Shown: positions 18,674 to 25,187 of the stretch, piece by piece
Numbering within the stretch: position 1 is the stretch's first letter
How the letters are laid out: every line of letters starts with the position of its first letter
Source: Rickettsia typhi
Lineage (GTDB): Bacteria; Pseudomonadota; Alphaproteobacteria; WRAU01; Hepatincolaceae
Length of the DNA: 56,441 nt
Direction: 5' to 3'
NCBI GenBank assembly: GCA_945888065.1
Contig: CAMCZU010000004.1
Span: forward strand, 1 to 56,441
Notes under the pieces: generated by a model
Told to the model about the DNA's origin: nothing
Database searches by the model: none
The model's input: only the letters and a program-made list of their open reading frames with translations
Position numbers and translations under genes: made by a program

Positions 18674-19738
18674 GTGTTGTATAAAGTTTTATTAAAAATC
18701 TTAGTTGTTGTTAGTTTATTATTTGTTTATTCTTGTGATGCAAGGAAAAGCAATATTAATAAAAAAATATCTACTTTGCAAAATACACAAAATGAAATTA
18801 AAGCAAATATTGCTATTAATCAAAAAACACAGCTACAATTGCTAAAAAAAATTAACTCTCTATCTGAGTTTTCTGAAAAATCTTCTAATATTTTTGCTAA
18901 TTATTTTTTTTCTCCATATATTTCCCAATATAAAGATTTAATTTTTAATAATAATGAAAAACAATCTCATTTATCAAATAAATCTGTTAGTAATATTATT
19001 TTTCATTTAAGCAATTTGTATGATGGAAATGAACCACAAAATTATGCTTTTATTACTTTGTATGATTCTATTGATTGGGATATTAAAATTTTTAAAGTTT
19101 TTAAAGGTGGTTCTCTTGTATCATTAGTTGAAAAATGTTCTAAGCCAGAGTGTAATACATATTATATTTATATTGAAGGATTGCAAGGTGTTGATAGGCA
19201 GATATTAAAAAAAGAATTTTTGTTAGAATATAAAGGTAGCTTTACTCACAATATTCTGTTGCTAGATGTAGAAACAGTTCCTCATTTTAAAATTATTAAG
19301 CGTATTTCTTATTCTAATTCATTAGTGATTAATAAATGGTTAGATTTGCAAGAGAAAAATAAATTGTTAGATTCTGAGGTGCAGTATTCTAAAATATCTA
19401 ATAAATCTAAAAAATACACATTAAAATATTTAGACTCAGAATCTATGAATATAAGCATTGCAGATTACGATTATGAGTTTGCTAATTCTTATTTGGCTAC
19501 TTATAATGATTCTGTGGAATCTTTGTTAAATTACAATAAACTTCGTATGGAGTTTTTTAAAAGTAATAATGTTTCTCTTTATAACTCTTTAATGAAAGAA
19601 AAAGATTATTATAATTATATGAAAACTTTTAAAGACAATAAGGTTGTAATATATAAATTACAAAAAGAATATGCAATCTTGGTTAAAAATTTAGAAAGTG
19701 TATCTTCTGATATTGAAAAATTAAAAAAATCTTTGTAA
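18674..19738 (+). CDS. Uncharacterised lipoprotein with helical ends
   Basis: I do not recognise this 354-residue protein. It has a lipoprotein signal peptide with lipobox V-Y-S-C (Cys21). A hydrophilic, Gln/Lys/Asn-rich helical stretch (about 28-65) looks like a coiled coil. A middle region (about 105-225) is rich in alternating hydrophobics and probably beta, with a C-x4-C pair (Cys155, Cys160). A long basic helical C-terminus (about 290-354) follows. Helices at both ends around a beta core suggest an envelope scaffold or adaptor. It starts with GTG and has its own strong promoter. It converges on the M16 peptidase gene 21 bases away. Function unknown. Confidence 0.7.
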   Translation: MLYKVLLKILVVVSLLFVYSCDARKSNINKKISTLQNTQNEIKANIAINQKTQLQLLKKINSLSEFSEKSSNIFANYFFSPYISQYKDLIFNNNEKQSHLSNKSVSNIIFHLSNLYDGNEPQNYAFITLYDSIDWDIKIFKVFKGGSLVSLVEKCSKPECNTYYIYIEGLQGVDRQILKKEFLLEYKGSFTHNILLLDVETVPHFKIIKRISYSNSLVINKWLDLQEKNKLLDSEVQYSKISNKSKKYTLKYLDSESMNISIADYDYEFANSYLATYNDSVESLLNYNKLRMEFFKSNNVSLYNSLMKEKDYYNYMKTFKDNKVVIYKLQKEYAILVKNLESVSSDIEKLKKSL

Positions 19739-21079: not shown

Positions 21080-22327
21080 ATGATGCAATTAACAATAGAA
21101 AAGTTAGATAAAGATTTAGATGGTATTGTTTATAAGGATAATATAGCTATTAAAGTTCCTTTTTGCAAAGTAGGTGATATTGTTGATATTTTAGACATTG
21201 ATTATACTAATAAAACTCCTGTAGCTACGAAATTTAATTTAAATAAAGATTCTCATCAAAGCCCCTTGTGTGAATATTTTTATAAATGTGGGGGATGTAA
21301 ATTACAGCATTTTAGCAAACAAGAATATACTGAAATTAAATTACAACTAGTAAAAGATAGCTTTAAAAAAGCTAATTTTACTTATAAAATAAATAACAAT
21401 AATTTTTATAATCATTTAGATGAACCTAAGCATCATAGAAGAAGAGTAGAATTTAGTGTTGATAAGTCTATTGTAGGATTTAAAGGTTATAAAACAAATC
21501 AAGTAATACAAATTAAATCTTGCCCTTTGCTAACAAATAAATTAAATCTTGCTTTAGATGAGTTTAGCAATATTGTAAATAAATATAATAATGTTTTGCA
21601 AATTATATCTATTCATTTAACTCAAATTGATGATTATATAGATGTATTACTTGTGTCTTGTAAAAAAAATGATTTAAATGTTGTTAAACTTTTACAACAA
21701 ATATTTCAAATTTCATATATTGCAAGGATTTATTGGAAATATAAAAACTTAATTGAACCAATTGTTGTAAAACATAATTTACAATTAAGTTATGGATCTT
21801 ATAAAGTCAATTATCATATTAATACTTTTTTACAAGCAGAAGAGTTTGGTGAAAAGCTTATAGTTAATTTTATATTAAAATACTTATTTAATAGTGAAAA
21901 AATATTAGATTTATTTTGTGGTTATGGTGGATATTCACTATCTTTGCTTAGTTCAAAAACTAAATTAATTAAGTGCATAGATATTGAATCTAAAGCTATT
22001 GAAAGTCTTAGTAAGATTAACAATAAAATTATTAATGCTTGTGTTCAGGATCTTTTTAAAAAACCAATTTTGGCTGAAGACATCAATGATTATGATGCTA
22101 TTATTATTAATCCTCCACGAAGTGGTGCTTTTTTACAAATTCAGGAGATTGCAAAAAGTAAAATTAAAAAAATAGCAATGGTTTATTGTTCTTTAACTTC
22201 TTTAACAAGAGATTTAACATATTTATTACAAAATAATGATAAATATTATATTGTAGATATTATATTTGTAGATCAATTTGTTTTTACTCACCATTTAGAA
22301 ATAATTGTCATTGTAGAAAAATCGTAG
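21080..22327 (+). CDS. RNA m5U methyltransferase (RlmD/TrmA family)
   Basis: This 415-residue SAM-dependent enzyme methylates C5 of uridine in rRNA or tRNA. It has an N-terminal TRAM-like segment and a four-cysteine iron-sulfur site (C64, C70, C73, C148), as in RlmD. A SAM-binding motif L-D-L-F-C-G-Y-G-G begins near 277, with N-P-P-R-S-G at 344-349. Cys370 (V-Y-C-S) is in the position of the catalytic cysteine. The family's F-x-Q-x-N motif is altered to F-L-Q-A-E. The iron-sulfur site favours RlmD over TrmA, but the exact target cannot be read from sequence. Ends in TAG. Confidence 0.88.
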   Translation: MMQLTIEKLDKDLDGIVYKDNIAIKVPFCKVGDIVDILDIDYTNKTPVATKFNLNKDSHQSPLCEYFYKCGGCKLQHFSKQEYTEIKLQLVKDSFKKANFTYKINNNNFYNHLDEPKHHRRRVEFSVDKSIVGFKGYKTNQVIQIKSCPLLTNKLNLALDEFSNIVNKYNNVLQIISIHLTQIDDYIDVLLVSCKKNDLNVVKLLQQIFQISYIARIYWKYKNLIEPIVVKHNLQLSYGSYKVNYHINTFLQAEEFGEKLIVNFILKYLFNSEKILDLFCGYGGYSLSLLSSKTKLIKCIDIESKAIESLSKINNKIINACVQDLFKKPILAEDINDYDAIIINPPRSGAFLQIQEIAKSKIKKIAMVYCSLTSLTRDLTYLLQNNDKYYIVDIIFVDQFVFTHHLEIIVIVEKS

Positions 22328-22425: not shown

Positions 22426-24582
22426 ATGATTTCTTTAATTGTTAATATTGTATATTTTATATATATTTTTTTAAAATCTTTAATAATTTGGAATATTAAA
22501 TTAGTAGCAATAATTTTTATAGCTTTGTATCAAATAGTTTTGAAGATTTTAAAAATTATTTACAAAATAGCTATATTTATTGCTTTAAGTTTATGGAAGA
22601 TATTTTATAAAATATTTTTATGCATTAAATATTTTAGTATTCTAATTATTAGAATTCTATATTTAATTATTGTATTTATTTTTAATTGTTTAATTTTTTT
22701 GTATCAATCGTTATTGTTTTGTTATCAAGTTATTATTTTTATAGGACAAAGTATATATATTTTTATAATAAGTAGTTTTGTTAGATTGTATAGATTTATA
22801 TTTTATATATCTTCAAAGCCTATTCCTAAAGTTAAATTAACTTTAAAATTAAATATAAAAGTAAAAAAAATTAAGTTTGTAAAATTTAAATTAAAATTTT
22901 TACCAGAAAAAAATTTCAATTTAAACATAATAGATAAACTTATTGTTAAAATTAAATATATTCAAAATAAATTTGTTTTATATATCAATATGGTTAGAAA
23001 TAACCTTAATATTGTTTATTATAGTATATTGGGAAATTATAAATTATTTGTAATTTATATTAAAAATATTTTAAAAAAAATACAAACAAAAGGTTTTATT
23101 GTAATATCTATACAATCTTTGTGCCGATATTTATATAAATTGTTTTTTAGTATTATACGTTTTTATTATAAATTTGTAATTAGTATGATAAGTTTTTTTA
23201 TATATGATGTTTTACAAATTAAAACTTTTTATAGGTATTTGAAAAAAAATATATTTATTAGTGTATCTATATTTTTAATTATTTTTGTTAATATGTATGG
23301 GGTGTTATTTTTTTATTATAATAAAAATTTATTCATAGAGCAAAACATTAAGTGGCAAAGCCGAGCATCTTTTATTCCAATATCTTCAGTTATACTATTA
23401 TTATGGGATAATATATTATTTAAATCTATTAGATATAGCAATCTTGAAATAGAGATATTTGAAGGTGAGAGTATGTTTAAAATTTTAGAAGATAATCATA
23501 TTGATTCTGCAAATGCAAAACTTGTAATGTCAAAAATTGCTAAATACTTTAATTTAAAAAATATTAAAAAAGGTTGGGTAATTAATACTGTAATAGTTTC
23601 TTATGGAAATCTCCCTGGTAAAATACAAAGAATGTCTTTACCAATTAGTAATCAATATGATTTGATTATAGAAAGTGATAGCAATAATGAATATACAGCT
23701 TTTAAGCAACAAAAAAAGCTTACTCGCTATATTTTAAGAAGAAGAATTTTAATTCAAGATAATTTTTATAAATCAGCAAATAAGGTTGGAGTATCTGATG
23801 CAGTAATAGAAGAAGTATACAAAGTGTTATCTTGGGATGTTGATTTTCAAAGGGAAATTAGAGAGGGAGATGTTTTGGAAGTTGTTTATGAATGTTTATA
23901 TAATCAATTAAACGAATTAACCTCTTGTGATAACTTACTTTATGCTTCTTTAAATGGATCTCAAAAGTCAATTTCTTTATATAAATATAATAATACATAT
24001 TATCATTCAGATGGTAGCAGTGCCTCTAAAACTTTAATTAAAACTCCAATTAATGGTGCAAGGTTAAATTCTAATTATGGTTTTAGAAATCATCCTATTT
24101 TAGGTTATGTTTTGCTTCACAAGGGGATTGATTTTGCAGCCCGACCTGGAACACCTATTTTAGCTAGTGGAGATGGAGTTGTAGAAAAAATGTATTATTC
24201 TAATACTTATGGTAATTATATAAGAATTAAGCATAATCAATACTTATCTTCAGCTTATGCTCATCTTCAAAAATTTTATTCTAAATTAAAACAAGGTGAT
24301 AGGGTAAATCAAGGAGATACAATAGGTTATGTAGGATCAACAGGGCGTGCTACTGGACCTCATTTGCATTATGAAGTTCTCATTAATCGTAAACAGGTAA
24401 ATCCTTCTACAATGAAAATGCCTTCTAATCAAAAATTAATAAATGAAGAATTAGACACATTTGATAAATACAAGGAAGTGTTAGATTCTACAATCATTAG
24501 AATACCAACAAGAGGAAAAATAATATCGCCTATTTATAACCCATCTGATTCTTTAATAGAACAAGAAACAAGCAAGAGTTAG
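22426..24582 (+). CDS. M23 murein endopeptidase with giant hydrophobic/cationic N-terminus
   Basis: The C-terminal part is a complete M23 (LytM-type) zinc peptidase that cleaves peptidoglycan cross-links: H565/D569 (H-K-G-I-D-F), H613 (Y-A-H-L) and H646/H648 (H-L-H-Y-E). Residues 343-393 resemble the LysM/OapA-like domain that precedes M23 in periplasmic endopeptidases. An ordinary membrane anchor lies at about 274-298. What is odd is residues 1-270. The first 130 are almost continuous Ile/Phe/Leu/Tyr interrupted by single Lys residues. Residues 131-160 alternate Lys with hydrophobics, and there is not a single Asp or Glu before residue 161. Typical relatives start near the later anchor. An internal start is possible but would leave a long unexplained open frame. 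Its tail overlaps yqgE by 4 bases. Confidence 0.9.
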   Translation: MISLIVNIVYFIYIFLKSLIIWNIKLVAIIFIALYQIVLKILKIIYKIAIFIALSLWKIFYKIFLCIKYFSILIIRILYLIIVFIFNCLIFLYQSLLFCYQVIIFIGQSIYIFIISSFVRLYRFIFYISSKPIPKVKLTLKLNIKVKKIKFVKFKLKFLPEKNFNLNIIDKLIVKIKYIQNKFVLYINMVRNNLNIVYYSILGNYKLFVIYIKNILKKIQTKGFIVISIQSLCRYLYKLFFSIIRFYYKFVISMISFFIYDVLQIKTFYRYLKKNIFISVSIFLIIFVNMYGVLFFYYNKNLFIEQNIKWQSRASFIPISSVILLLWDNILFKSIRYSNLEIEIFEGESMFKILEDNHIDSANAKLVMSKIAKYFNLKNIKKGWVINTVIVSYGNLPGKIQRMSLPISNQYDLIIESDSNNEYTAFKQQKKLTRYILRRRILIQDNFYKSANKVGVSDAVIEEVYKVLSWDVDFQREIREGDVLEVVYECLYNQLNELTSCDNLLYASLNGSQKSISLYKYNNTYYHSDGSSASKTLIKTPINGARLNSNYGFRNHPILGYVLLHKGIDFAARPGTPILASGDGVVEKMYYSNTYGNYIRIKHNQYLSSAYAHLQKFYSKLKQGDRVNQGDTIGYVGSTGRATGPHLHYEVLINRKQVNPSTMKMPSNQKLINEELDTFDKYKEVLDSTIIRIPTRGKIISPIYNPSDSLIEQETSKS

Positions 24583-25187
24583 TTATTAGTATTATTTTTA
24601 TTAGCTATAAACATAGCAGGATTAGTATTTGTAATCCCTAAATCTTTTAAAAGTTGATCATAAAGTTGATAAGGAGGGTTTTGAAATAAATATTTAGAAT
24701 CAAACGGATAAATTATCCAACTATTGTCATTTATTTCTTGTCTTAATTGATTTTTTTCCCAAGTAGCACAACCAATTGCAATTAAAGAGTTTTTTGGTCC
24801 TTGATTATTGCTTAAATCTAATATTGTTTGGGGCTGATTTGTCATAGAAATAGTATCTAACACCGGAGTGGTTTGGTTTATTTTATAATCGTTGCTATGA
24901 ATAATAAATAAATTATTAGAATTAACTGGTCCTCCTAAAGAAATATTTACAATACAATCACCTAAATTAATATCTGCAATATTTAGATTTTGATTAATAC
25001 TTTTAGCTATGTGTGTAAATGTATGTGCAGAAGGTTTGTTGATTACCACTCCCATACTTCCAGTTTCATTATCTGTAGCTATAAAAATGACAGATCTAAA
25101 AAATCTATTATCTCCAATAGCAGGAGATGATATTAAAAATTTACCTTTTAGTGAATCATTTGAAATATTTATTAACTTAGATGACAT
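24579..25187 (-). CDS. YqgE/AlgH family protein
   Basis: This 202-residue protein belongs to the YqgE/AlgH (UPF0301) family. Diagnostic stretches are G-K-F-L-I-S-S-P near the N-terminus, R-S-V-I-F-I-A, G-S-M-G-V-V-I-N-K-P and G-G-P-V. Later stretches are A-I-G-C-A-T-W, matching the family's G-Y-A-G-W, and W-I-I-Y-P-F-D. The biochemical role of the family is not settled. In many proteobacteria the gene neighbours ruvX, but here it is far from ruvX and lies convergent with the M23 gene, the two tails sharing 4 bases. Confidence 0.93.
   Translation of the reverse strand: MSSKLINISNDSLKGKFLISSPAIGDNRFFRSVIFIATDNETGSMGVVINKPSAHTFTHIAKSINQNLNIADINLGDCIVNISLGGPVNSNNLFIIHSNDYKINQTTPVLDTISMTNQPQTILDLSNNQGPKNSLIAIGCATWEKNQLRQEINDNSWIIYPFDSKYLFQNPPYQLYDQLLKDLGITNTNPAMFIANKNNTNN

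Follow-up and report, generated by a model that had tools for sequence, protein, structure and literature searches.

What is the long N-terminus that precedes an otherwise ordinary cell-wall endopeptidase in this genome, and how might it lie relative to the membrane? The gene is located in a 56,441-nucleotide stretch of DNA (hereafter, the window), in which positions 22426-24582 of the forward strand form a single, complete ORF that begins with ATG and encodes 718 aa. The protein and its enzymatic part comprise the following features:

22426..24582, + strand: N-extended MepM/ShyA-type M23 DD-endopeptidase ORF, 718 aa (ORF calling; Pfam, NCBIfam and PDB matches)
23245..23319, + strand: transmembrane anchor, aa 274-298 (hydropathy and AlphaFold helix)
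23428..23625, + strand: membrane-proximal periplasmic region, aa 335-400, putative match to the LysM/OapA-like part of MepM (model alignment)
23752..24078, + strand: Csd3_N2 domain, aa 443-551 (Pfam)
24118..24405, + strand: Peptidase_M23 domain, aa 565-660 (Pfam)

The M23 domain was recognized with a Pfam E-value of 7.5e-33 and was preceded by Csd3_N2 (31.8 bits versus a cut-off of 27). Its metal ligands and catalytic histidine (HxxxD, H, HxH) were intact, with H565, D569, H613, H646, and H648 invariant across four genera. The anchor was characterized by a Kyte-Doolittle peak at aa 276-294 and by an AlphaFold helix at aa 276-298; Pfam, Kyte-Doolittle and AlphaFold thus agreed with a previous sequence-only reading, which had described an ordinary M23 enzyme with a single anchor at about residues 274-298. 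Beyond the anchor, the PRK11649 and ShyA models aligned from residues 328-344, and LysM_OapA itself was only weakly matched (E = 0.2), in the relative L003. The best PDB relatives of the core were 6UE4, 6U2A, 2GU1, and 3SLU, the first three corresponding to ShyA. Among NCBIfam models, the best matches were MepM and ShyA/ShyC, with scores that did not reach the equivalog cut-offs (171 versus 341 bits for MepM and 192 versus 700 bits for ShyC), and the enzyme is therefore named here as being of the MepM/ShyA type, rather than as MepM itself. It shares with MepM (YebA), ShyA, and ShyC the single anchor, Csd3_N2, M23, and possibly the LysM-like region; however, these proteins lack the cationic amphipathic region of 260-320 residues found here ahead of the anchor.

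Across the order to which this genome belongs, this extension measures approximately 260 to 320 residues. In the window protein, residues 1-271 contained 39 Lys/Arg, 67% of hydrophobic residues (ILVFMWYCA), and only three acidic residues, at positions 161, 170, and 261. Residue counts and inspection of the sequence thus agreed with the earlier description of a region devoid of Asp and Glu before residue 161, in which Lys alternates with hydrophobic residues from 131 to 160 (KPIPKVKLTLKLNIKVKKIKFVKFKLKFLP). Acid-poor stretches were common in the multi-pass membrane proteins of this genome, the longest acid-free run found being 167 aa; what is unusual is to find acid-free sequence combined with strong hydrophobicity, much positive charge, and a helical stripe that stays coherent. 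The corresponding DNA was 86% AT and contained 15-40 stops in each of the other five frames. Dinucleotide-preserving shuffles (n = 2000) exhibited a mean of 28 stops per frame, with a longest open run of 116 codons. A stop-free frame of this length, which had been considered unlikely to occur by chance, was indeed so in these shuffles, and the open frame of the extension is not a chance product.

The order is small and poorly known, belongs to the Alphaproteobacteria, and was sampled by four genomes, corresponding to four genera. Each of the four contained the gene as an uninterrupted frame of 718-797 aa, with pre-anchor extensions that were 61-67% hydrophobic and contained 35-43 Lys/Arg and 3-8 acidic residues. 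Its genomic environment was also largely shared, with the following genes on either side in the window:

21080..22327, + strand: gene of the tRNA/rRNA uracil-C5 methyltransferase family, upstream (Pfam; adjoins the endopeptidase gene in four genera)
24579..25187, - strand: AlgH-like (DUF179) gene, downstream and convergent (Pfam; beside the endopeptidase gene in 3 of the 4 genera)

On one side, M16 peptidase and uracil-C5 methyltransferase genes were found in four out of four genera; on the opposite side, three out of four had AlgH and RNase H genes. In the window, a 354-aa ORF (18674-19738, + strand) lies between ligA and the M16 peptidase gene; it is predicted to be lipoprotein-like, with a coiled-coil character by eye, and had no credible Pfam match. 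A search for ADP/ATP translocases, performed to judge intracellular lifestyle, had a silent control.

The sequence-only reading had proposed to look for the extension in related genomes and had envisaged that relatives might all start at the anchor and show decay of the frame ahead of it. Instead, the extension was found at the same syntenic locus in all three relatives, in which the frame was uninterrupted and resembled the window copy in length and composition. These observations bear on whether the upstream frame belongs to the protein at all. Translation from an internal start near the anchor, leaving the upstream frame outside of the protein, would be in line with the short or unrelated N-termini of the other alphaproteobacterial orthologs examined, and no obvious strong ribosome-binding site was seen by eye ahead of the ATG at 22426. 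It is nevertheless hardly credible, as about 300 codons were open in four genera, versus approximately 28 stops per frame expected in the window copy, and as helical phase was kept at the protein level despite an unconserved sequence. Moreover, each of the four genomes had a start codon where the extension begins or close to that point; internal Met residues of the window protein are found at 189, 253, and 291. The earlier view that a normal M23 enzyme here carries a real additional region associated with the membrane was supported.

Within the class, an ortholog of the endopeptidase was found in about 300 genomes. No such region was observed among the N-termini examined from outside the order, which were short, acidic, or made of LysM-type repeats. 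The orthologs L122 and L124, from other AT-rich reduced genomes (33% and 25% GC, respectively), exhibited merely a short stretch before the anchor. Long open frames ahead of other class orthologs were inspected and rejected as candidates, corresponding to GC-rich read-through, LysM-type repeats, or acidic linkers. An M23 protein encoded at L123:732-1994 (- strand; G020, a 0.6 Mb genome of the same class) carried an N-terminal stretch of about 60 residues, hydrophobic and partly cationic, before its periplasmic part, which is possibly an independent short analogue.

Searches of Pfam, NCBIfam, and PDB sequences with the extension returned nothing credible. A profile built from the four extensions found just those four genes, which is weak as evidence of absence: with leave-one-out profiles, built from three extensions each, the held-out fourth was barely or not separated from block shuffles of itself. 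Since profiles hardly recognize a held-out member, the absence of the extension elsewhere rests on direct inspection of N-termini. Homology among the four extensions is deduced from their position in orthologous genes, not from sequence. The extensions keep their length, charge, and helical phase while their sequence is barely conserved.

This helical phase was described by periodicity analysis and structure prediction, from which the extension could be divided into the following segments:

22426..22809, + strand: arm 1, aa 1-128, predicted amphipathic helix, its polar stripe phase-locked at 99 degrees per residue (periodicity; AlphaFold helix 2-128, low confidence)
22810..22905, + strand: cationic hinge, aa 129-160, in which Lys and hydrophobic residues alternate (composition; pLDDT low at 128-170)
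22906..23211, + strand: arm 2, aa 161-262, predicted helical, cationic, with weaker, drifting amphipathicity (periodicity, AlphaFold)
23130..23202, + strand: imperfect 33-bp tandem repeat, 2.3 copies, within arm 2 (repeat detection)

Arm 1 contained 11 Lys/Arg and no Asp/Glu, and was 79% hydrophobic; Gly and Pro were very scarce, which fits one long helix, and all three Pro of the extension were located in the hinge. When arm 1 was written in rows of 11 residues, all 11 Lys/Arg fell within five adjacent columns, and the direction of the polar stripe, given by the local hydrophobic moment, varied by no more than about 40 degrees from end to end. In the analysis of hydrophobicity, each of the four extensions displayed a strong helical period, of 3.6-3.67 residues. 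Over the first 125-134 residues, a single angular frequency described the whole segment in each genus, at 99.0, 98.25, 98.0, and 98.0 degrees per residue; its power was equalled by 1, 0, 0, and 1 shuffles per 20,000, respectively, and an ideal 11/3 helix has 98.2 degrees. The pattern found in four genera is thus that of an 11/3 helix, defined by a periodicity of about 98 degrees that stays in phase across many 11-mers. The sequence-only reading had not included the helical amphipathicity of residues 1-128, to which the periodicity analysis assigns one phase at 98-99 degrees. Such a segment would resemble a single long helix whose hydrophobic face is very wide and whose cationic stripe is narrow. 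The amphipathicity of arm 2 was strong in two relatives and weak in L003 and in the window protein, in which it was equalled by about 7% of shuffles. The 33 bp of the arm 2 repeat match a single helical unit of 11 residues, which hints that arms may grow by 11-mer duplication. An origin of the arms by tandem duplication was rejected, as a repeat with a 33-bp period was detected only here, once and weakly, and in none of the relatives.

AlphaFold models, computed with four sequences, were of low confidence (mean pLDDT of 56 and 59 for two divergent members) and do not provide any membrane placement. In both members, the predicted layout consisted of arm, hinge, arm, and anchor, with first helices at 2-128 and 2-142 (127 and 141 residues, respectively); more helices came after an interruption at the hinge, and the anchor was modelled as a helix of its own. 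A fold search of the extension model against the PDB gave no match under E = 5, as expected from a helical, low-confidence model. The database comparison proposed in the sequence-only reading yielded neither a credible sequence match in Pfam, NCBIfam, or PDB nor a fold match, and it was in the related genomes that the extension was recovered.

To what extent these properties stand out was determined by scanning 826 kb of the own genome and the near-complete 1.34 Mb genome of a relative. For helical coherence, arm 1 ranked first among 109 hydrophobic ORFs and second among all 698 ORFs of its own genome, and the orthologous extension ranked first out of 180 in the genome of the relative. The net charge of the extension (+36 per 250 aa) was the highest among the hydrophobic 250-residue windows of the own genome, and that of the relative (+31) was also at the top (1 out of 93). 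A comparable layout was not found on any other protein of the two genomes scanned. The second highest positive charge among hydrophobic proteins of the own genome (+24) belonged to a 740-aa multi-pass protein (L101:11592-13811, + strand), mechanosensitive-channel-like by eye, and an ORF of similar size and charge was observed at G001 153248-155521.

A large single-anchor protein, of 991 and 1198 aa, was also observed at L073:14252-17224 (- strand; own genome, contig C3) and at G001 936209-939802 (- strand), respectively. It appeared AsmA-like by eye, had no Pfam match, and carried, ahead of its anchor, a conserved amphipathic stretch, cationic and about 55 residues long (in G000, PFKDILIKTLPFTKKIIFLLDKLGLFIGFLTKK), which ranked third and fifth in 55-residue scans of the two genomes. 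This stretch is possibly another in-plane segment ahead of an anchor in this lineage, shorter than the arms.

The most obvious alternative is an ordinary multi-pass transmembrane domain, in which several spans would be fused ahead of the anchor. Such a domain is suggested by the high hydrophobicity (67-79%) and by the many 19-residue windows above the usual Kyte-Doolittle cut-off; indeed, by Kyte-Doolittle alone, arm 1 of the window protein would contain some nine overlapping windows predicted to span the membrane. We consider it unlikely. The main evidence against it is that both periodicity and net charge are far beyond the range of the multi-pass proteins of the same genomes, with periodicity z-scores of 3.5 to 7.0 in the four extensions versus -1.3 to +1.2 among the multi-pass proteins listed. 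Moreover, one helical phase runs through about 12 consecutive 11-mers, which loops between spans would break; arm 1 lacks Asp/Glu and nearly lacks Gly/Pro; and the spacing of hydropathy peaks differs between relatives. The intramembrane platform or membrane-embedded domain suggested in the sequence-only reading was not supported as a multi-pass-like domain, since periodicity and charge favor helices that run along the surface of the membrane rather than through it.

A second alternative is that a non-essential N-terminus drifted, under AT-biased mutation in a reduced genome, into functionless low-complexity sequence rich in Ile, Phe, and Lys. The 86% AT content, the scant sequence conservation, and the short DNA repeats in the extension, one of them of 33 bp, would be consistent with such drift, which nonetheless appears improbable given that helical phase was retained over 125-134 residues in four genera and that nothing alike was seen in either scanned genome. 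In addition, the AT-rich reduced lineages L122 and L124 lack the extension, and Asp and Glu are nearly excluded although the codons GAT and GAA are two-thirds AT.

From these sequence properties, we favor a cytoplasmic N-terminus, specific to the order, that is probably enlarged into two long amphipathic helical arms with a cationic hinge, carried by a MepM/ShyA-type DD-endopeptidase. The arms would quite likely lie in-plane on the cytoplasmic side, a placement predicted by the positive-inside rule (39 Lys/Arg versus 3 acidic residues). Lying flat, they would bury their wide hydrophobic face in the cytoplasmic leaflet and direct the Lys/Arg stripe at anionic head groups, while the enzyme would be on the opposite, periplasmic side of the anchor. 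Through this single anchor, such a raft might, with less certainty, slow the diffusion of the enzyme, group several copies, or steer it to a particular membrane composition or curvature, and the cutting of crosslinks would thereby be spatially confined. Positioning or clustering as the role of the arms is a guess, which we regard as somewhat doubtful.

The nearest functional parallel is the LmdC-bactofilin module of Hyphomonas and Rhodospirillum, in which a cytoplasmic tail of about 38 residues with a beta-hairpin binds bactofilin (PMC10945521). Like the present protein, LmdC is a bitopic M23 endopeptidase, and its cytoplasmic N-terminus serves to position it; however, it combines a short beta-hairpin tail with periplasmic coiled coils, whereas the present protein combines a long extension, modelled as helical, with a Csd3_N2/M23 core. 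By analogy with residues 1-38 of LmdC, which bind bactofilin as the cytoplasmic tail of a bitopic M23 enzyme (PMC10945521), the arms could be a recruitment tail that binds a partner protein rather than lipid, or could even face the periplasm or the outer membrane. MreB, found in all four genomes, would be compatible with this option, to which we give little credence: the excess of Lys/Arg over acids predicts the cytoplasmic side, and the sequence varies too much to contain a specific motif for protein binding. Bactofilin (PF04519) was detected in none of the four genomes of the order, with a positive control in Caulobacter, and recruitment by bactofilin was therefore rejected.

For in-plane arms, partial parallels exist in other systems. 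In the KL4 type of surfactant peptide, Lys residues occur at intervals between Leu on a helix associated with lipid, as predicted for the arms, but the peptide is short and synthetic. The bacterial protein NuoL contains a long lateral helix parallel to the membrane, as predicted for the arms, but this helix packs on other complex I subunits. The nearest structural parallel is provided by the 11-mer (3-11) helices of perilipin, alpha-synuclein, and apolipoproteins, which exhibit 11/3 periodicity and an aligned polar face on the lipid surface (PMC5889406). Perilipin and synuclein resemble the arms in that a long 11/3 helix keeps one polar face aligned. The repeats of perilipin 4, however, are weakly hydrophobic, of mixed charge, and conserved as 33-mers (PMC5889406), whereas the face of the arms is very hydrophobic (Ile/Phe/Leu), their stripe is cationic, their repeats are unconserved, and their placement on the lipid surface is predicted.

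Overall, this is an unusual architecture on a familiar type of enzyme, conserved in the four genomes sampled from the order and without earlier description in the libraries searched. More tentatively, it may represent an undescribed class of bacterial membrane domain, namely a constitutive in-plane 11/3 helix of about 190 angstroms, nearly acid-free and selected for its physical properties rather than its sequence, which would hold a periplasmic cell-wall enzyme from the cytoplasmic leaflet in genomes with no detectable bactofilins. The arms would exemplify a long domain in which selection maintains helix phase and charge but lets the sequence drift, and which is by design invisible to sequence searches. 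The known solutions for confining crosslink-cutting endopeptidases use protein scaffolds, such as bactofilins; if the arms are a lipid-based scaffold, they would represent a different way of placing a cell-wall hydrolase.
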